In this document: piece after piece, positions 34,956 through 43,270 of the stretch
How the letters are laid out: the number at the start of each line of letters is the position of its first letter
How positions within the stretch are numbered: position 1 is the first letter of the stretch
From: Synergistaceae bacterium
GTDB taxonomy: Bacteria > Synergistota > Synergistia > Synergistales > Aminobacteriaceae
Direction: 5' to 3'
DNA: 47,034 nucleotides
Assembly: GCA_017444345.1 (NCBI GenBank)
Contig: JAFSWW010000135.1
Span: 1-47,034, forward strand
Translations under genes and position numbers: made by a program
The notes under the pieces: generated by a model
What the model was told of the DNA's origin: nothing
The model's input: the letters and a program-made list of their open reading frames with translations, nothing else
Database searches by the model: none

Positions 34956-35079
34956 TACAACATGATAAAATAATGCACGGAGGGGCGTTCTAGTTTTCGT
35001 TTTCTCAAGAGAGCTGGACGAGACTCGCCGGGGATACTCCTTGTGCGGTCTATATTGGCCGAAAGGAGGTGAAGCCAGA

Positions 35080-35187
35080 GTGAAGGATCTTCTCGACAGA
35101 ATCATAGAACTGCTACAGTACATTTCTATATCCGCAACAGTTCTAGAATTAATTCTTAGGGTGATTCGATGGCTTTTCACCCACTAA
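35080..35187 (+). CDS. 35-residue amphipathic/hydrophobic peptide (cassette A)
   Basis: GTG start 10 nt after GGAGG within AAAGGAGGTG. The product starts MKDLLDRIIELLQYISISAT and ends VLELILRVIRWLFTH. Charged residues (D3, D6, R7, E10, E23, R27, R30) fall on one helical face, the rest being Ile/Leu/Val/Trp/Phe, so a membrane-active or membrane-bound helix is likely. It has the same length, start codon and second residue as the peptide of cassette B. No family recognised. Confidence 0.55.
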   Translation: MKDLLDRIIELLQYISISATVLELILRVIRWLFTH

Positions 35188-35218
35188 AGATAAAGCGTCT
35201 TTTACTTAAGATGTAAGT

Positions 35219-35260
35219 CCTGAGTGGGGTTGCAGTCCCCGCTTAGGCAGTCTTTGTTTT
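35219..35260 (+). terminator. Hairpin terminator of cassette A
   Basis: CCTGAGTGGGG, loop TTGCAGT, CCCCGCTTAGG: an 11-bp stem with two wobbles, followed by CAGTCTTTGTTTT. It ends the peptide transcript 31 nt after its stop. The T run is interrupted. Confidence 0.65.
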
Positions 35261-35397
35261 CCGCAATTTGTCCGACCCTTCCCGGCCAGATTGCAATTAT
35301 TATACATCATTCAAGATTTTATTCAGTCAGGAATTTAGCGCAAATAATATTTACAGGTTATAATAAATATAATTATTTATGACGGAGGATTAATATT

Positions 35398-36453
35398 TTG
35401 TCTCTGAGAAAAGGCCTAATAATATTTATATTGCTTGCGTTCGGAGTGTCTGCAATAATAATTTTCAAGAGCGTTGATGATCAGACTATACACTCATTAT
35501 TACATGCGAATAAATTTAAATTATTGCTTGCTTTATGTGTCGTCTTTCTTGCTTGGATATGTGACGCGGGGCGATTTTGTTCACTTGCATTTGCTGCTCA
35601 AGAAAAAGTCTCTTTCTCGCTGGGAATTGTCTTAACATGGCTAAATTATTTCGGCAGTGCTGTAACTCCCATGCAGAGCGGCGGCGGCCCCTTTCAAGTT
35701 TACGCGTTATACAAAAAGGGAATCCCTATGGGTAAGGGCATCGCAATAACTCTTATAAGAACTATGCTGACTGTTTTAATATTGACTCTAGCTGTTCCCG
35801 GAGTCTTAATGCTTGATCCTGAAATTTTAGAAGGCAGCCCATTTCTTAAAGGTTTAGTATTTTATGTTTTCGCCGTGATATTAGCAACATGGGCATTTAT
35901 AGCGTTTACTATTATTAAGCCTGAGATTGTCAAGAAATTAATACGAGTCTTTATCATGTGGCTTAGAAGATTTAATTTCATGCGCTCAAATCGTACAGTT
36001 ATAAAAATTATTCAATGGCTTGATAAGGAAGTAGATAATTACATAATAAATTTTAGACTCACGTTTAAAACTGGTAAATTATGGCTCGTTCTCGCAGTGA
36101 TTTTATCAGTCTTGCATTTGCTTGCTTTATTCAGTGTTTTGCCCGTCTTAATGAGTGCGGTGGGATTGCCTTTCAGATATACTCAAACAATAGCAGTTCA
36201 GGCCGTATTCATGTTTATATTATATTTTGTGCCTACTCCGGGGGCCAGCGGAGTCGCTGAAGGGGGCGGGGCGTTGCTTTATTCTGTCTTAATGCCTGAA
36301 AATATGGCCGGGGTAATGTCGATTATATGCAGATTCTTCACGGATTATATTTCGATTTTTATGGGAGTCGTAGTAGTTATTAGAATGCTCGGCTGGGGAG
36401 TCACTGAAAATTTACACAAGGGAGCAGCAATTGATGAGGCCGATAATAAATAA
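35398..36453 (+). CDS. Flippase-like/UPF0104 membrane protein (LPG-synthase TM family)
   Basis: 351 residues with about 8 TM segments. The WLNYFGSAVTPMQSGGGPFQVYALYKKGI region and the C-terminal VPTPGASGVAEGGGALLY motif define the lysylphosphatidylglycerol-synthase TM/flippase-like family (DUF318/UPF0104). Members are thought to handle lipids across the membrane; no C-terminal aminoacyltransferase domain is present, so it is not a full MprF. Start is a TTG after GGAGG (10-nt spacing). First gene of a three-gene cluster ended at 37749. Confidence 0.85.
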   Translation: MSLRKGLIIFILLAFGVSAIIIFKSVDDQTIHSLLHANKFKLLLALCVVFLAWICDAGRFCSLAFAAQEKVSFSLGIVLTWLNYFGSAVTPMQSGGGPFQVYALYKKGIPMGKGIAITLIRTMLTVLILTLAVPGVLMLDPEILEGSPFLKGLVFYVFAVILATWAFIAFTIIKPEIVKKLIRVFIMWLRRFNFMRSNRTVIKIIQWLDKEVDNYIINFRLTFKTGKLWLVLAVILSVLHLLALFSVLPVLMSAVGLPFRYTQTIAVQAVFMFILYFVPTPGASGVAEGGGALLYSVLMPENMAGVMSIICRFFTDYISIFMGVVVVIRMLGWGVTENLHKGAAIDEADNK

Positions 36454-36487
36454 CGTGCGGGAATAAAATTTTTTGTAAATATATATA

Positions 36488-37072
36488 GTGATGACAATGG
36501 AAAAATTTAGCGAATTTATATTTAGAATGCGCGGGGGACTTTGGACTCTTTTATTTGTGCTGATATTAATAACTGCATACGGGAATGAATCAAGCTCAAT
36601 GCAAATATATATCTCGCTTGTAATTATAATATCCGGTCAAATTTGGCGGTGCTGGGCGGCCGGCTTTATAGGCTTATACAGGGGCGAAAACGTGAAAGCT
36701 CAAAAACTTGCACAGACTGGGCCGTATGCTTTAATGCGCAACCCTTTATATTTCGGAAATTTCTTAATCGGTCTCGGCTGGAGCATAATAGCAGGCTTTT
36801 ATGCAGTGATTATATTTATAGCTAGCTTTTATTTATTGTATATTCTCGTGATAATTCCGCATGAAGAAAATTTTTTACTCGGCAAATTCGGCGATGAGTA
36901 TATTAATTATTGCGGACGTGTTAAAAGATTCCGGCCGGTCTTGAAAAAATTTAAATTTAGCGATTTAACCGGAGATTTTGACTCAAAAATTTTATTGCGC
37001 AGTGAAATTCATACTATAATAACGACTGTAATAGGCACACTAATAATTATTGCTGTAACGTGTTATACTTAA
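36488..37072 (+). CDS. Isoprenylcysteine-methyltransferase-like membrane methyltransferase
   Basis: 194 residues. Four to five TM segments with GPYALMRNPLYFGNFLIGLGWS and the PHEENFLLGKFGDEYINYCGRVKRF C-terminal helix, the SAM-binding signature of the ICMT/PEMT superfamily. In bacteria these methylate membrane-associated small molecules or lipids; the substrate is not known. The start (GTG 36488, ATG 36491 or ATG 36497) is unclear because no strong ribosome binding site is seen. It follows the flippase-like gene by 34 nt. Confidence 0.82.
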   Translation: MMTMEKFSEFIFRMRGGLWTLLFVLILITAYGNESSSMQIYISLVIIISGQIWRCWAAGFIGLYRGENVKAQKLAQTGPYALMRNPLYFGNFLIGLGWSIIAGFYAVIIFIASFYLLYILVIIPHEENFLLGKFGDEYINYCGRVKRFRPVLKKFKFSDLTGDFDSKILLRSEIHTIITTVIGTLIIIAVTCYT

Positions 37073-37099
37073 TTGCTTTATTTAAAGGAGGCGGAATTA

Positions 37100-37741
37100 A
37101 TGCCCAGAAAATATATGATAAATAATGAGCCGGTAACAGAACGCAAAATTATAACAACGCAGGAACTTTTAGACGCAATCACAGAAACTGAATATCCCGA
37201 TTATGTGCTTGAAATTGTCGCGATTTTCCGGGAATGGATGCATGACTCAATTGAAGCTCCTGACACAGTTTATAACGGACAGAATGTTTTTGACGCTATG
37301 TTGAGCCAATTTTTTGACGAGGAAGCAGTAGGAGTTATGAATCTTTATGAGAGTTTAAGCAAATTTGAAGATATTGCCGATCTCATACCCGGACACAAGA
37401 AACCTGAGGGCAAACCTGATACTATAGTTGTGAGTGTGAATCCTCCTGACTGTGAAAACGGACTCCACGCGGCTATAGATTACGCAGCAGTCTTTAACAG
37501 GCCGGAATGTAAAAGAATCTGGATAATCTCGAATACTTATATATATGACGACATGATGAGATATGCGAATCATATTGATGCACTGGCAAAACAGGGCATA
37601 AAGACAAGATTTATTCTAGTAAACGCGTGGGGATGGGTTGAGCTTCCATTAAGTTCAGCTAATGCAACAAAGCAGCAATTTATATTAAACACTGACACGC
37701 CAAAACATACACGCACAATAAGACGAAAGAAGACAATATAA
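37100..37741 (+). CDS. Conserved-looking soluble protein of unknown function
   Basis: 213 residues from the ATG at 37100, 10 nt after AAAGGAGG (the longer TTG frame from 37073 covers that site). I do not recognise the family. The N-terminal half is acidic and helical; the C-terminal half (about 105-190) looks alpha/beta: DTIVVSVNPPD, KRIWIISNTYIYDDMMRYAN, TRFILVNAWGWVELPL. The tail is Arg/Lys-rich (TRTIRRKKTI). No signal peptide. It ends the flippase-methyltransferase cluster and is followed by a strong terminator. Confidence 0.6.
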   Translation: MPRKYMINNEPVTERKIITTQELLDAITETEYPDYVLEIVAIFREWMHDSIEAPDTVYNGQNVFDAMLSQFFDEEAVGVMNLYESLSKFEDIADLIPGHKKPEGKPDTIVVSVNPPDCENGLHAAIDYAAVFNRPECKRIWIISNTYIYDDMMRYANHIDALAKQGIKTRFILVNAWGWVELPLSSANATKQQFILNTDTPKHTRTIRRKKTI

Positions 37742-37748
37742 AATTTTA

Positions 37749-37783
37749 ACAGGTCTCATGAGGGTGTGAGGCCTGTTTTTTTT
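37749..37783 (+). terminator. Rho-independent terminator
   Basis: ACAGGTCTC ... GAGGCCTGT (one internal mismatch) followed by TTTTTTTT. It lies 8 nt after the stop of the unknown gene and also faces the antiporter gene on the minus strand. Confidence 0.88.
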
Positions 37784-37789
37784 GCGCAA

Positions 37790-39742
37790 TTATAGCATTA
37801 AGAAAGCAATCACGAATAAAAGCCCGACGGCAAATGTCATTAAACCGTATGCAAGACTTGACGGCAAAAGAGTCCCTACTGTCTCATTTTTTGACTCGTC
37901 GTGATAGAATCCGAAATCTGTATCTTCAGGCGGCTTAATAAATTTAATTCTCGACATGTTAGACAATGCCAAAGTAACCGGCCCCGCTGTGAATAAATCT
38001 AAAATTTTCGCAAATAATGACCCGATAAACGGCAATATTACACCGATTACTGGTCTAAATAAGAAATTTTCTATATTGAGCCATGCAGGCCACTTGTCAT
38101 AATAATCGTAATTTTCGCGGCTGATTAAGAATTTTTTTATGAACAAGAAATATACTATTATCCCGATTGAGATAGAAATTATTGAGCCTTCAAGATTTGC
38201 AAAGGTGAAATAATTTATAATATGATGATGTTCGGGGGCATTCATGAAAGCCGAGCCGAGTACGCTGATTTTATCGCCGGTGTCATATGGCAGCATTCCT
38301 ATTAATGGCAGCAGCAAAGCCGAGAAAGTCAATAATGCCGCGTTTACTCCTGAAATATATTTTTCTTTAACGTGCATATTTTTATCAGGCCGGGCAATAA
38401 ATAACGCTACAAATAATTTTATTACATAAGCAGTAGTTAAGCCGCCGGAAATCAAGAAAAGCCATTCACATATATTAAATAAAAATTTTTCACTTGACAG
38501 GCTCATAAATGCAAGAGTCCCCGCCGTGTGATGTATATGTTCTACAATGCTTTCATGTATTAAAGTCTTGCCTAAATATCCATTCCATAAAGGCGCACCC
38601 ATGAGTCCGAGTCCTCCCATTATGAAAGCAAACATAAAAATTTTTCGCCCGCGTCCGAACCCTTTTATGTCATTCAAGTTTAATTTATGAGTATTCATGT
38701 GAACTACACCGGCGCAAAGAAATAATACCAGTTTTATTAACGAGTGCCCGACCATATATAAAATAGTCCCTCTTACTGCTAGATCATTTTCTTGACCTAG
38801 AAAGCACTGCATTGCGATACCCGTTAAAATAAATCCTAATTGCGACATTGACGAACATGCAAGAGTCCGCTTAATATTCACGGAAAATACAGCGAGAACA
38901 GCTCCGAGTGTCATTGTTATAATTGCGAGTATCAAGAGCAGAAATCCCCATATAGAATCATGCAAGAATACTCCGGCGGATAATATAATAATCCCGAATA
39001 GTCCCGATTTAGTGAGCAGTCCCGACAATAAAGCACTTGAGGGAGCAGGTGCAGCAGTATGAGCAGTGGGCAGCCATATATGAGACGGAAATATAGCAGC
39101 CTTTGCAGCAAATCCCGTAAAAATTAACACGCCTGAAATATATAGCTCGCTCTTGTCCATTTTGAGCCGTGATAGTGAGTCAATATCAAGAGTCCCCGTT
39201 TTCGCGTAAAATAAAATTAGTCCCGTCAAAGTTACAAGCCCGCCTATAATTGCAATTGCTAAATAAGTCTGTGCTGCCCTTTGTGCGTCCCTTGTCTCGT
39301 CCTGAACTACCATTACATAAGAAAATAGCGACATCATCTCGAAAAATATAAATGTAGTGTATAAATCGCCCGACAAAAATACTCCCATAATCGAGCCCAG
39401 AGTCATTAACACGTACAAATAATAGCGATTTCTATTTCTGTGATGAGTCAAATATTCGCGTGAAAATATCGTAGTTACTGCCCACATGAAAGCAATTATT
39501 ACAGCATAAATATATCTGAAGCCGTCAAGACAAAATTTTATGCCCAGTCCGCAGACTCCGGGAGCTTTGAACTCAGACCCGATAAATTTATAAGCGTAAA
39601 GAGTTACAGCAAGCTCAATTAAGCAGACAAGATCAGCCGTATAATCGCGGAATTTCCTATCTTTCTTGCCGACAAAGTAAGACACAAGCCCGCCTATCAT
39701 TGGCCATAACACTAAGAATAATAATAAAAAATTGCCTTCCAT
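37790..39742 (-). CDS. Complex-I-like proton/Na+ antiporter subunit (MrpA/D, NuoL/N type)
   Basis: 650 residues, ~14-16 TM segments. FIFFEMMSLFSYVMV carries the conserved TM5 Glu; GFAAKAAIFPSHIWLPTAHTAAPAPSSALLSG carries the TM7 Lys and the PSALLSG-like family motif; LLTKSGLFGIIIL and the discontinuous TM12 region follow. It would translocate protons or sodium. Unlike typical members it is alone, convergent to a terminator, with no Mrp, Rnf, hydrogenase or NADH dehydrogenase genes around. The C-terminus after the antiporter core (about 500-650) is unusual in carrying extra TM and soluble segments. It starts at ATG after GGGGT. Confidence 0.85.
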   Translation of the reverse strand: MEGNFLLLFLVLWPMIGGLVSYFVGKKDRKFRDYTADLVCLIELAVTLYAYKFIGSEFKAPGVCGLGIKFCLDGFRYIYAVIIAFMWAVTTIFSREYLTHHRNRNRYYLYVLMTLGSIMGVFLSGDLYTTFIFFEMMSLFSYVMVVQDETRDAQRAAQTYLAIAIIGGLVTLTGLILFYAKTGTLDIDSLSRLKMDKSELYISGVLIFTGFAAKAAIFPSHIWLPTAHTAAPAPSSALLSGLLTKSGLFGIIILSAGVFLHDSIWGFLLLILAIITMTLGAVLAVFSVNIKRTLACSSMSQLGFILTGIAMQCFLGQENDLAVRGTILYMVGHSLIKLVLFLCAGVVHMNTHKLNLNDIKGFGRGRKIFMFAFIMGGLGLMGAPLWNGYLGKTLIHESIVEHIHHTAGTLAFMSLSSEKFLFNICEWLFLISGGLTTAYVIKLFVALFIARPDKNMHVKEKYISGVNAALLTFSALLLPLIGMLPYDTGDKISVLGSAFMNAPEHHHIINYFTFANLEGSIISISIGIIVYFLFIKKFLISRENYDYYDKWPAWLNIENFLFRPVIGVILPFIGSLFAKILDLFTAGPVTLALSNMSRIKFIKPPEDTDFGFYHDESKNETVGTLLPSSLAYGLMTFAVGLLFVIAFLML

Positions 39743-39849
39743 CTATAAATTACCCCTTTTTTGAGAACGCCGAGATTCAAATTTTTGTAATTGTGAAAAT
39801 ATGATTTTGCTTTGATTATAGCATGAGTGAAGATTTATAGAATCCGTAA

Positions 39850-40226
39850 AATTTCATGTGATAGAATAATAGACAGTTTGTGAAGTTCTGCAAATTAGGA
39901 GGACCCTAGCTTGAGAAACCCAGTTCGCTGGGCGGCAATTCAGGCGGGGGGTTGCCGCTAAAGGAAATTTGTTTCTTGTTCTCTTCCCGCCCGCAGAGGA
40001 AAGGAGGGAGTGCTGTGAAGACCCTCGTGGAATTCTTGAAAGCTCTTGCATCAGTATTTAAATACTTTGCTGAAGCGATCAAAGCACTAACGGAATTTCT
40101 CCGTTTGATCCGAAATAAATAACGCGCCTTTAACCATTCTTGTTATTACTCTTGTCGGTTAAGGTGGCAGCCTTAGCCGGCATTCAAGTTTTTTGTCCGT
40201 TGTCCTCCCGGACGTTCTTATTATAA
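39850..40226 (+). ncRNA. Structured RNA cassette B carrying a 35-residue peptide gene
   Basis: The gap 39743-40246 holds no long gene. Its left 107 bp are AT-rich. The rest contains TAGAAT (39860-39865, possible -10), a leader with hairpin CCCAG-TTCG-CTGGG at 39918-39931 and GGCAA...TTGCC, the peptide frame 40015-40122, then CCTTTAACC ... GGTTAAGG and GTCCG ... CGGAC hairpins. TTGTCCG...CCTCCCGG near 40194-40212 matches cassette A. On the minus strand TATAAT (40220-40225) stands just before that motif, a possible antisense start. It lies directly upstream of the Cdc48-RluD gene. Confidence 0.5.
40015..40122 (+). CDS. 35-residue amphipathic peptide (cassette B)
   Basis: GTG start 7 nt after GGAGG within AAAGGAGGGA. 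The product is MKTLVEFLKALASVFKYFAE followed by AIKALTEFLRLIRNK. Lys/Glu/Arg recur every 3-4 residues opposite Leu/Phe/Ile/Val/Ala, an amphipathic cationic helix. It has no close sequence match to the cassette A peptide beyond the MK start, identical length (35) and helix pattern. No known family assigned. Confidence 0.55.
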   Translation: MKTLVEFLKALASVFKYFAEAIKALTEFLRLIRNK

Positions 40227-40246
40227 CACGGAGGATTCATAATAGT

Positions 40247-43200
40247 ATGATTAAATCTTTTAAGGTCTTAGAGGCTTATTCGGGCGACGCTATGAAGGGA
40301 CTTGCAAGGATTCACCCTGATGATATGAAAGAATTAAATTTGTCAGAAGGTGATTTAATAGAGTTAACCGGCCGGACTGTTACACCAGCAAGAATCAGAG
40401 CAGGCGACAAAGAAACAGGCACGGGAATAATTCAGATTGACGGGCTTATACGAGAAAACGCCGGAGTCTCACTTGACGATAATATAAATCTTGAGACAAG
40501 CATAATTTATCACTTTGCAGGCAGTATAACTCTTCAGCCGCTGGGAGACGTAAAATTATCTGATAGAGAGAAGGACGAGCATTATATACTTTCACTCTTA
40601 GAAGGCCAAGCAGTCAGGGCCGGTGATAGAATCCGAGTTAATTTATTCGGGACTCGTATCTGCGACTTTCAAGTTACAGCAGCAACCCCCGATGGCACTG
40701 TCATAATTAATAAATCTACATATTTAAATTTGCTTAAGCCTTTAGAAATAAAGCACTCTCACAAAATTTCTTATGAAGATATAGGCGGTCTTAGTTCACA
40801 AATTCGCAAAGTCCGTGAAATGATAGAGCTTCCCTTGAGATTTCCGCAAGTTTTTGAGCGTCTAGGAATTCAGCCCCCGCGCGGAGTGTTGTTATACGGC
40901 CCTCCCGGAACTGGTAAAACAGTAATCGCCCGTGCTGTAGCAAATGAGACTGACGCATGGTTTACGCATATATCAGGCCCGGAAATAATCGGCAAATTCT
41001 ACGGTGAAAGCGAAGAGAGACTCCGCAAAATTTTTGAAGAGGCTCAAGACCGCGCACCCTCGATTATATTTATAGACGAGATTGACGCAATTGCACCTAA
41101 ACGCGCAGAAATGGGCGGAGAAAAACAGGTAGAACGCCGAGTAGTTGCCCAGTTATTAGCACTAATGGACGGCCTAAAATCACGCGGACAGTTAATAGTA
41201 ATAGCAGCTACAAATATTCCCAATTCTTTAGATCCTGCTTTGAGAAGGCCGGGAAGATTTGACCGTGAAATTTCGATTCCTATTCCTGACAGAAACGGGC
41301 GGCTTGAAATCTTAAAGATTCATACTCGCGGAATGCCTTTATCTCAAGACGTTGATTTAATGAAAATTGCTGATTTATCACACGGTTATGTCGGTGCAGA
41401 CTTGGAAGAACTTGCGAAAGAGGCCGCTATGTCATGCGTTAGAGATATTTTGCCGATGATTAATTTTACCACTCAAGAGATCCCATATGAGAAAATTTCA
41501 AAACTTGAAGTTACTCAGCAGCATTTTATTAACGCATTACTTGAGACAAACCCCTCGGCTACACGTGAATTCTTTGTTGAAGTCCCTGATACTAAATTCA
41601 GCGATATAGCAGGACTTGACGACATAAAGCAGCAACTAATTAACGCAGTAAGACAGCCATTAGAACACGCAGATTTATTCACGAAATATAAATTAACTCC
41701 CATTAAGAGCATATTATTATATGGAGCACAGGGAACCGGCAAGACTTCACTAGCTAAGGCACTGGCTCATGAAAGCGGCCTAAATTTTATAAACGTTCAG
41801 AGCGCAAATTTATTATTACGTTATCAGGGAGATTCTGAACGCGCCCTAAAAAATATCTTCCGTGCAGCAAAACAGGCGGCACCCTCAATTATATTCTTTG
41901 ACGGAATTGACTCGATATTCCCCGATAAAAATCCTCCGTCACAAACTTTGCGGGGACAATTTTTTGCGGAACTCAACGGGATCGAAGAACTCAACGGCGT
42001 TACTGTCTTGGCCGCAACTGATAACCCGCGGGGCTTGGACAAGGCTTTATTTTCTCCGACAGTCTTTAATTTGCGCGTCAAAATGCCCATCCCTGAAGAG
42101 AATGACCGAGCAGAAATTTTTAAACTTGAACTCGCTGATAAACCTTTAGATAATAATATTGATTTTACCGAACTAGCACAATCAACTGAAGGACTTAACG
42201 GCGGAGATATAAATTTTATTTGCAGGAGTGCCATAATGCAGGCTTTAAACGAGAACACAGAAAATTTTATTATAAAGCGTGAAAATTTTGACGAGGCTAT
42301 AGACTCATTCAGTGAATTAATAGCAAAGAGACAAGAGTCAAACGAGCAGGAAAAATTACAGGAAAATGCAATAGAGATTACAGCAGAAGCAAGTTATTCA
42401 AGGCTTGATGTTTTCTTAGCTGAAAAGTTAAATATAACCCGCTCGCAAATTCAGAGAATGCTCAAAACCGGCCTAGTGTCAATAAACGGAGTCAAGCATT
42501 TAAAGCAGGCTCAAAAAGTGAATAAGGGCGATAAAATTATTGCGATAGTCCCAGAGTCAGAAAATATAACGGCTCTTGTCGGTGAAGATGATGTACCATT
42601 TGACGTAATTTATGAAGACGATCATTTAATCGTAGTAAACAAGCCCGCCGGAATAATCGTTCACCCCGCCCCCGGTAAAATGCACGGGACATTGATTCAA
42701 GGGCTCGTTCAGCGTTACCCGGAATTAAAGGAAATGGACGGATTTATGCGCCCCGGTATAGTCAGCCGCTTAGATATGGGAACATCGGGACTCTTAGTTG
42801 TTGCTAGAAATCAAGAGTCTTATAATTTATTACAAAAAATGTTCGCTTCTCGTGAAATCAATAAATATTATTTAGCACTGGTACACGGTCATTTGCCTCA
42901 GCCTGAAGGAATCTTATCCGGTCCGATTGATAAAGACCCTAAAGACTCGACTCACTCTATAATAGTCGAAGGTGGCAAGCCATCAATAACCGGCTACAAA
43001 GTCATAAAAGAAAGCGCAAAATATTCACTTGTTGAGTGCAAATTATATACTGGGAGGACTCATCAAATTAGAGTTCACATGTCGGCGGCCGGGTGTCCAT
43101 TATACGGGGATTATGCTTATGGAGCGCCGGAAAAATTTATGAATCGAGTATTTTTGCATTCGTGGAAGTTGTCATTTATTCACCCTATAACGGGCAAAGA

Positions 43201-43270
43201 ATTATCATTCAGGCAATTTATACCGGAAGAGTTTACTAATTTGTTATATGTCTTGAATCACGAGAATTAA
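40247..43270 (+). CDS. Cdc48/VCP-like AAA+ ATPase fused to RluD-type pseudouridine synthase
   Basis: 1007 residues from the ATG at 40247, 12 nt after GGAGG. Residues 1-165: Cdc48 N domains (double-psi barrel with GLARIHPDD, then QAVRAGDRIRVNLFG). D1 (~180-440): Walker A GPPGTGKT at 218, Walker B FIDEID at 277, arginine fingers in RRPGRFDR near 334-337, all intact. D2 (~455-700): Walker A GAQGTGKT at 493, but Walker B is FFDGID (Gly 553 for Glu) and the arginine-finger segment reads LFSPTVFN. After residue ~710 come an S4 domain (RLDVFLAEKL, GLVSINGV) and a pseudouridine synthase with HPAPG and RLDMGTSG (catalytic Asp 843), TGRTHQIRVHM. One uninterrupted frame; no internal start for a separate RluD. 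The fusion suggests coupling of remodelling to 23S rRNA modification, which is inference. Confidence 0.92.
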   Translation: MIKSFKVLEAYSGDAMKGLARIHPDDMKELNLSEGDLIELTGRTVTPARIRAGDKETGTGIIQIDGLIRENAGVSLDDNINLETSIIYHFAGSITLQPLGDVKLSDREKDEHYILSLLEGQAVRAGDRIRVNLFGTRICDFQVTAATPDGTVIINKSTYLNLLKPLEIKHSHKISYEDIGGLSSQIRKVREMIELPLRFPQVFERLGIQPPRGVLLYGPPGTGKTVIARAVANETDAWFTHISGPEIIGKFYGESEERLRKIFEEAQDRAPSIIFIDEIDAIAPKRAEMGGEKQVERRVVAQLLALMDGLKSRGQLIVIAATNIPNSLDPALRRPGRFDREISIPIPDRNGRLEILKIHTRGMPLSQDVDLMKIADLSHGYVGADLEELAKEAAMSCVRDILPMINFTTQEIPYEKISKLEVTQQHFINALLETNPSATREFFVEVPDTKFSDIAGLDDIKQQLINAVRQPLEHADLFTKYKLTPIKSILLYGAQGTGKTSLAKALAHESGLNFINVQSANLLLRYQGDSERALKNIFRAAKQAAPSIIFFDGIDSIFPDKNPPSQTLRGQFFAELNGIEELNGVTVLAATDNPRGLDKALFSPTVFNLRVKMPIPEENDRAEIFKLELADKPLDNNIDFTELAQSTEGLNGGDINFICRSAIMQALNENTENFIIKRENFDEAIDSFSELIAKRQESNEQEKLQENAIEITAEASYSRLDVFLAEKLNITRSQIQRMLKTGLVSINGVKHLKQAQKVNKGDKIIAIVPESENITALVGEDDVPFDVIYEDDHLIVVNKPAGIIVHPAPGKMHGTLIQGLVQRYPELKEMDGFMRPGIVSRLDMGTSGLLVVARNQESYNLLQKMFASREINKYYLALVHGHLPQPEGILSGPIDKDPKDSTHSIIVEGGKPSITGYKVIKESAKYSLVECKLYTGRTHQIRVHMSAAGCPLYGDYAYGAPEKFMNRVFLHSWKLSFIHPITGKELSFRQFIPEEFTNLLYVLNHEN

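Follow-up and report, generated by a model that had tools for sequence, protein, structure and literature searches.

A many-copy family of candidate type I toxin-antitoxin modules in rumen Synergistaceae

The window analysed here is a 47-kb contig (JAFSWW010000135.1, 47,034 nucleotides, nt) of the 2.3-Mb genome of a Synergistaceae bacterium (GCA_017444345.1), in which two short cassettes, element 1 (34963-35309) and element 2 (39859-40228), each contain a small peptide open reading frame (ORF). By sequence comparison both are members of one many-copy family of rumen Synergistaceae, and each cassette is probably a small type I toxin-antitoxin module with convergent transcription, since convergent promoters, mRNA self-inhibition, a masked Shine-Dalgarno, an amphipathic peptide and a predicted antisense RNA to the 3' half are combined in it. 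In the mechanism we propose the sense promoter would make an mRNA of about 300 nt that encodes a short helical peptide, amphipathic and in most cases cationic; this putative toxin probably targets the membrane of the cell that makes it. The newly made transcript would be silenced twice, by a local hairpin that holds the Shine-Dalgarno and by pairing of its 5' leader to its own terminator loop, and at full length it would stay inert until its 3' end is trimmed or refolded. An extended -10 box just beyond the sense terminator would drive an antisense RNA on the opposite strand, which would cover the whole 3' untranslated region (UTR) and, in subtypes B and C described below, stop within the toxin ORF at a terminator of its own. 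The first stem-loop of this RNA would mirror the toxin terminator loop, so that kissing, duplex formation and cleavage by a double-strand RNase, presumably RNase III, could follow.

Both ORFs lie where the initial annotation of the window had placed them, with GTG starts behind a GGAGG (spacers of 10 and 7 nt), leaders of about 100 nt or more as measured from conserved -10 boxes (34963-34971 and 39859-39867), and downstream hairpins at both cassettes. The TTGTCCG..TCCCGG motif that it had described at the 3' side is present and corresponds to a rho-independent terminator, whose loop joins a conserved pairing. Both peptides do have 35 amino acids (aa), but the shared length is coincidental, as the family spans 24-38 aa. 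The proposed shared ancestry holds in that there is one family; it is now backed by more than layout, namely by a bridging subtype and by the reach of a covariance model.

DNA searches with each element as query identified homologues within the same genome and in many genomes of the same genus, here the 43 genomes returned by search. Recurrence at other sites of this genome and across most of the genus shows that the cassettes are not chance arrangements. Within the genome the homologues are a tandem pair that precedes a uvrB-like gene on contig 94 and, on contig 62, a copy truncated at its 5' end. The latter is a subtype B relic (L003, G000:C62, 40273-40449, minus strand) that retains the 3' half of the ORF, the 3' hairpin, the terminator and the antisense promoter. 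A covariance-model search across related genomes had been suggested as a check; the model, covering the 3' part only and trained on 17 copies of subtype A, has matches in 30 of the 43 genus genomes (E<=0.01) and, over 188 genomes of the phylum (E<=1e-3), in this genus and in two further genera of its taxonomic family. Among relatives with names, most are rumen or foregut Synergistaceae. A lack of conserved structure, or of conserved frames, in related genomes had been named as fatal to the idea; both are conserved there.

All loci were scanned for a Shine-Dalgarno-led short frame followed by a terminator or an antisense -10 box, and spurious frames were removed. This gave 67 distinct elements, over which motif counts are partly non-independent because the motifs were partly in the search rule. 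Three peptide groups can be distinguished: A (KALA..AEVIRALTELIRSIKK; element 2), B (LLDRIIELLQ.ISVSATVLEILLRVIRWWFTH; element 1) and C (KLVQALTELVRALTDLIR), the last of which bridges A (the 40015 copy) and B (the 35080 copy). Common ancestry of the three is further supported by the model built from A only, which also detects some B and C copies, though marginally (E of about 1e-3 to 1e-2). The unit measures about 300 nt, with a sense extended -10 box (TRTGATARAAT) at one end and an antisense extended -10 box (TGNTATAAT) at the other; between them lie, in order, a leader with sequestered Shine-Dalgarno, the amphipathic ORF, a 3' hairpin and the terminator. Copies are often in tandem, with at least nine in genome G017 and ten covariance-model matches in G013. 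A pattern scan of 84,980 species gave matches mainly on Synergistaceae contigs and five outside; of these, three score weakly by the model (15-24 bits) and two have no model match, and the two weak ones that were inspected are generic terminators with no peptide module.

Tandem arrays were noted at L030, L033, L024, L044, L090, L098, L106, L114 and L117, with a period of roughly 320-400 nt. Neighbours within them may share or differ in the loop 7-mer described below, which may govern cognate specificity.

Element 1, the subtype B copy of the window, has the following features.

34963-34971, plus strand: sense extended -10 box, TGATAAAAT, a TGnTARAAT-type site
34979-34985, plus strand: 5' arm of the long-distance pairing, GGAGGGG, pairing with CCCTTCC at 35276-35282 (7 bp, one G-U) and covarying across the family
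35037-35069, plus strand: hairpin CTCCTT...AAGGAGG, predicted from sequence and accessibility computation to be able to sequester the Shine-Dalgarno
35080-35187, plus strand: amphipathic ORF of 35 aa, putative toxin, GTG start, MKDLLDRIIELLQYISISATVLELILRVIRWLFTH, with the subtype B coding signature (pN/pS, defined below, about 0.41)
35106-35144, minus strand: in-ORF antisense terminator-like hairpin with a 15-bp stem, score 29.1 against a recoded mean of 9.1, none of 40 recodings being as good
35219-35247, plus strand: 3' UTR hairpin
35263-35294, plus strand: sense terminator, with the 3' arm of the long-distance pairing formed by its loop (35276-35282)
35299-35309, minus strand: antisense promoter -10 box, reverse complement of ATTATACATCA, ATTATA then CA
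35100-35292, minus strand: predicted antisense RNA of about 190 nt that would start at the promoter and stop at the in-ORF terminator, ends approximate

Element 2, the subtype A copy, has these.

39859-39867, plus strand: sense extended -10 box, TGATAGAAT, preceded by TG
39898-39904, plus strand: 5' arm of the long-distance pairing, GGAGGAC, a perfect 7-bp complement of GTCCTCC at 40202-40208
39933-39957, plus strand: leader hairpin CGGCAA...TTGCCG with a G-rich loop
39983-40010, plus strand: segment predicted to fold onto and sequester the Shine-Dalgarno (which is unpaired with a probability of 0.05 when the whole predicted transcript is folded)
40015-40122, plus strand: amphipathic ORF of 35 aa, putative toxin, GTG start, MKTLVEFLKALASVFKYFAEAIKALTEFLRLIRNK (subtype A sets, pN/pS 0.26-0.54)
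40154-40181, plus strand: 3' UTR hairpin, covarying, with G-U pairs on the sense strand
40195-40213, plus strand: sense terminator hairpin, with the 3' arm of the long-distance pairing formed by its loop (40202-40208)
40220-40228, minus strand: antisense extended -10 box, TGTTATAAT (reverse complement of ATTATAACA)

Comparison of the copies shows that the ORFs are coding. Substitutions in the ungapped peptide sets concentrate at third codon positions (818, 357 and 1206 at positions 1 to 3 in subtype B), and the proportion of nonsynonymous over synonymous differences (pN/pS) ranges from 0.26 to 0.54; this ratio is uncorrected and taken over related sequences, hence it shows constraint but not its precise strength. 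Hydrophobic moments exceed those of shuffled versions of the same peptides (mean z 1.8-2.8) and the net charge, 0 to +7, is mostly positive. Small (<60 aa) helical peptide genes under selection, as expected of type I toxins, are what these data point to. Strong covariation at the RNA level would also suit a family of structured non-coding RNAs with an ORF present by accident, but with an open frame, Shine-Dalgarno and start in 67 copies, the third-position bias, pN/pS below 0.55 and the amphipathic periodicity that explanation is highly improbable.

The 3' hairpin and the terminator stem carry compensatory changes, and since G-U pairs appear on the sense strand in many intermediates, the 3' fold can be placed in the mRNA. 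Comparison further shows that the sense terminator loop pairs over 7 bp with a leader 7-mer near the mRNA 5' end, in at least nine compensatory versions: GGGAAGC/GCTTCCC, GGAGAGC/GCTCTCC, GGAGGAC/GTCCTCC (element 2), GGAGAAC/GTTCTCC, GGGAGAC/GTCTCCC, GGAAGGT/ACCTTCC, GGATGAC/GTCATCC, GGAGAGG/CCTCTCC and GAAGAGG/CCTCTTC, with GGAGGGG/CCCTTCC, including one G-U, in element 1. Here too the intermediates are G-U on the sense strand. The mean longest complement between a leader and its own terminator is 6.72, as compared with 5.81 upon permutation (permuted maximum 6.21; 10,000 permutations, p<1e-4), and a second test restricted to the loop and allowing G-U reaches significance in subtypes A (p<1e-4) and C (p=5e-4). 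The predicted unpaired probability of the Shine-Dalgarno is 0.16 against 0.34 with shuffled leaders when the leader alone is folded, and 0.17 against 0.25 for the full transcript. Comparison and prediction together thus suggest an mRNA folded to block its own translation, as in type I systems.

Conservation begins at the sense extended -10 box, and a TGnTARAAT-type site occurs some 90-150 nt upstream of the start codon in 62 of the 67 copies. It ends at ATTATANCA in subtype A, the reverse complement of which is the extended -10 box on the opposite strand given above, or at an ATTATACAcCA-like sequence in B and C. ATTATA(N)CA is found no more than 35 nt from the terminator arm in 62/67 copies where dinucleotide shuffles predict 1.1; ATTATA was in the admission rule for some of these copies, the following CA was not. 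This CA, one base after ATTATA, is invariant in 28/28 copies linked to a cdc48-like gene and in 9/9 other subtype A copies. It corresponds to the TG of the antisense extended -10 box, and the sequence beyond it is near background. The antisense box matches the consensus better than does the sense box; neither a -35 box nor an upstream regulator site shows conservation. We strongly infer that the antisense promoter is real.

A candidate terminator for the antisense RNA is apparent by comparison in subtypes B and C, where an antisense-strand hairpin of about 10-15 bp followed by a TTTTATTAT-like sequence lies inside the ORF. Synonymous recoding destroys it: none of 40 recodings is as good in 13 of the 14 true B copies, a set reached after reassigning the subtype of copies L071m322 and L106p953, and the same applies to eight of the fifteen C copies. 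The codons for KLLQ...ATV and LVQALTELVRAL therefore appear doubly constrained. An in-ORF antisense terminator was rejected for subtype A (observed mean 8.0, recoded 8.3). The initial annotation had offered a type I system or a secreted or regulatory peptide; that offer is supported, and the antisense promoter motif, the B/C antisense terminator, the covarying pairing and the Shine-Dalgarno sequestration argue for type I.

Peptides of 24-38 aa that are strongly amphipathic and encoded in multi-copy tandem arrays could also be secreted or surface-active helices, comparable to delta-haemolysin and phenol-soluble modulins or to bacteriocins, directed against other cells, with the RNA features tuning their dose. 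Staphylococcus aureus SprG1 is both a type I toxin and secreted (PMC6563280). Hard silencing by 5'-3' pairing, a Shine-Dalgarno lock and a cis antisense RNA is typical of self-toxic genes instead, and no exporter or immunity gene was recognised among the listed flanking genes, which vary per copy, although exporters can sit elsewhere. We consider this alternative unlikely, albeit the strongest of those weighed.

Several results count against a type I module. Typical type I toxins carry less charge than these peptides. In subtype B the loop-only pairing test is not significant against permutation, the 7-mer being nearly constant in these copies; several B terminators are also unparsed. The element 2 mRNA fold differs from shuffles by z = -1.5 only, the antisense RNAs predicted for the two window copies fold no better than shuffles, and the U tract of the in-ORF antisense terminator of element 1 is weak. 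A single convincing antisense terminator was not found for subtype A. That the antisense -10 box would be the stronger of the two is an argument from consensus only.

The family could not be assigned to known systems. Peptides compared with Pfam, NCBIfam, PHROG, PADLOC and PDB gave no meaningful match, no Pfam or NCBIfam match places them in hok/Sok, aapA/IsoA, bsrG, Fst/Ldr or tisB, and Rfam, searched with the window and, at relaxed thresholds (E<=2), with both elements, gave nothing at gathering score. The viral contigs, phages and plasmids searched contain no match to the family. The one match of the elements at relaxed thresholds, to SAM-IV in element 2 (21.7 bits, gathering score 38), was discarded as spurious, since it did not recur in 20 relatives, and a BsrG match in one relative (17.6 bits, gathering score 55) was taken as chance.

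Likeness to described systems is of mechanism. E. coli tisB/istR-1 specifies a 29-aa amphipathic membrane helix of comparable hydrophobic moment, calculated on what we take to be the TisB sequence, but IstR-1 is encoded divergently, in trans. The hok/Sok system of E. coli plasmid R1 and relatives uses 3' trimming as trigger and a cis antisense RNA, and the Synergistaceae family likewise has a plausible 3'-trimming trigger and a predicted cis antisense RNA. It differs from hok/Sok in lacking sequence similarity, in that its 3' partner is the terminator loop and in that its antisense spans the 3' part and not the 5' leader; no mok-like overlapping frame was identified. Pairing of 5' and 3' parts in the full-length toxin mRNA is another feature shared with hok/Sok (PMC6733600). 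In Helicobacter pylori aapA1 and aapA3 show 5'-3' pairing and activation by 3' trimming (PMC6733600); aapA/IsoA also resembles our family as a multi-copy chromosomal family with a small helical toxin, Shine-Dalgarno-masking hairpins and a codon constrained by RNA structure (PMC6733600), yet sequence similarity is absent and the Synergistaceae antisense promoter and overlap are at the 3' end. Convergent genes that overlap at their 3' ends are found in Bacillus subtilis bsrG/SR4, txpA/RatA and yonT/SR6, with RNase III decay for bsrG/SR4 and yonT/SR6 and extended -10 boxes in both the yonT and SR6 promoters (PMC5848175). Several of these are on prophages, whereas the Synergistaceae family has no phage match and no sequence similarity to them. 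The Microcystis pair msoT1/msoA1 is also a type I candidate outside the classic phyla (PMC12390103), but from a different phylum and with no evident relation.

According to the 2025 paper on that cyanobacterial candidate, type I systems had until then been known only in Proteobacteria, Firmicutes and Tenericutes (PMC12390103); taken with a review (PMC8309996), it confines the known ones to these three phyla and now Cyanobacteria. No type I system from Synergistetes was found in the literature, as searched in open-licence papers. The modules belong to no named family and are previously undescribed; we infer that they work like a type I system. If true, the type I class extends to another phylum, and covariation-based searches can find modules not detectably related to known ones. 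The family would join hok-like 5'-3' inhibition with a bsrG-like antisense geometry, the antitoxin terminator being written into toxin codons, and its dozens of natural compensatory variants provide material for testing cognate specificity between neighbouring copies.

Adjacent to element 2, and outside the module, is one further gene.

40247-43270, plus strand: CDC48-like AAA+ ATPase (CDC48_N, CDC48_2 and two AAA domains) fused C-terminally to an S4 domain and an RluD-type pseudouridine synthase

Twenty-eight copies, which make up most of subtype A, are directly upstream of and codirectional with such a CDC48-like gene, the start of which often lies only some 20-60 nt past the terminator with no obvious sense promoter between; the preceding genes vary. 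This arrangement would be expected if the ORF were a leader peptide and the terminator an attenuator of the downstream gene, notably the ATPase in subtype A. At about 14 other copies the gene downstream lies on the opposite strand, six of the 30 cdc48 loci inspected have neither element nor remnant, each tandem copy keeps a terminator, and an antisense promoter and in-ORF antisense terminator play no part in attenuation. Regulation by such a leader is accordingly improbable, and a simple attenuator was rejected for the family as a whole, as a codirectional downstream gene is not present at every copy. Also unlikely, and speculative, is that the subtype A module is coupled to the unfoldase, the switch gating cdc48 via read-through of the terminator with the leader-pairing loop and the unfoldase extracting or clearing the membrane-active peptide as a dedicated recovery machine.

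The cdc48 loci of G016 and G030 carry clear deletion remnants and the ORF at that of G004 is frameshifted, possibly by an error of the metagenome-assembled genome. Such decayed copies fit a dispensable module and were counted for the type I interpretation. At L154 (G016:C8, upstream of 4795) element 2 of the closest relative has an internal deletion that leaves the sense promoter, a leader stub and the antisense -10 box; cdc48 now stands directly behind the toxin promoter, a natural knock-out.

The cdc48 frame is about 1018-1035 aa in G000, G016, G033 and G017 and mostly about 680-770 aa elsewhere; the fusion to the synthase accordingly looks clade-specific. Other copies adjoin uvrB-, rsmI-, glmS-, cheW-like and other genes, named by sequence reading; flanking genes are diverse and many are convergent. 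In several genomes a uvrB-like gene has a subtype B or C copy next to it (G000:C94, L002; L106; L112).

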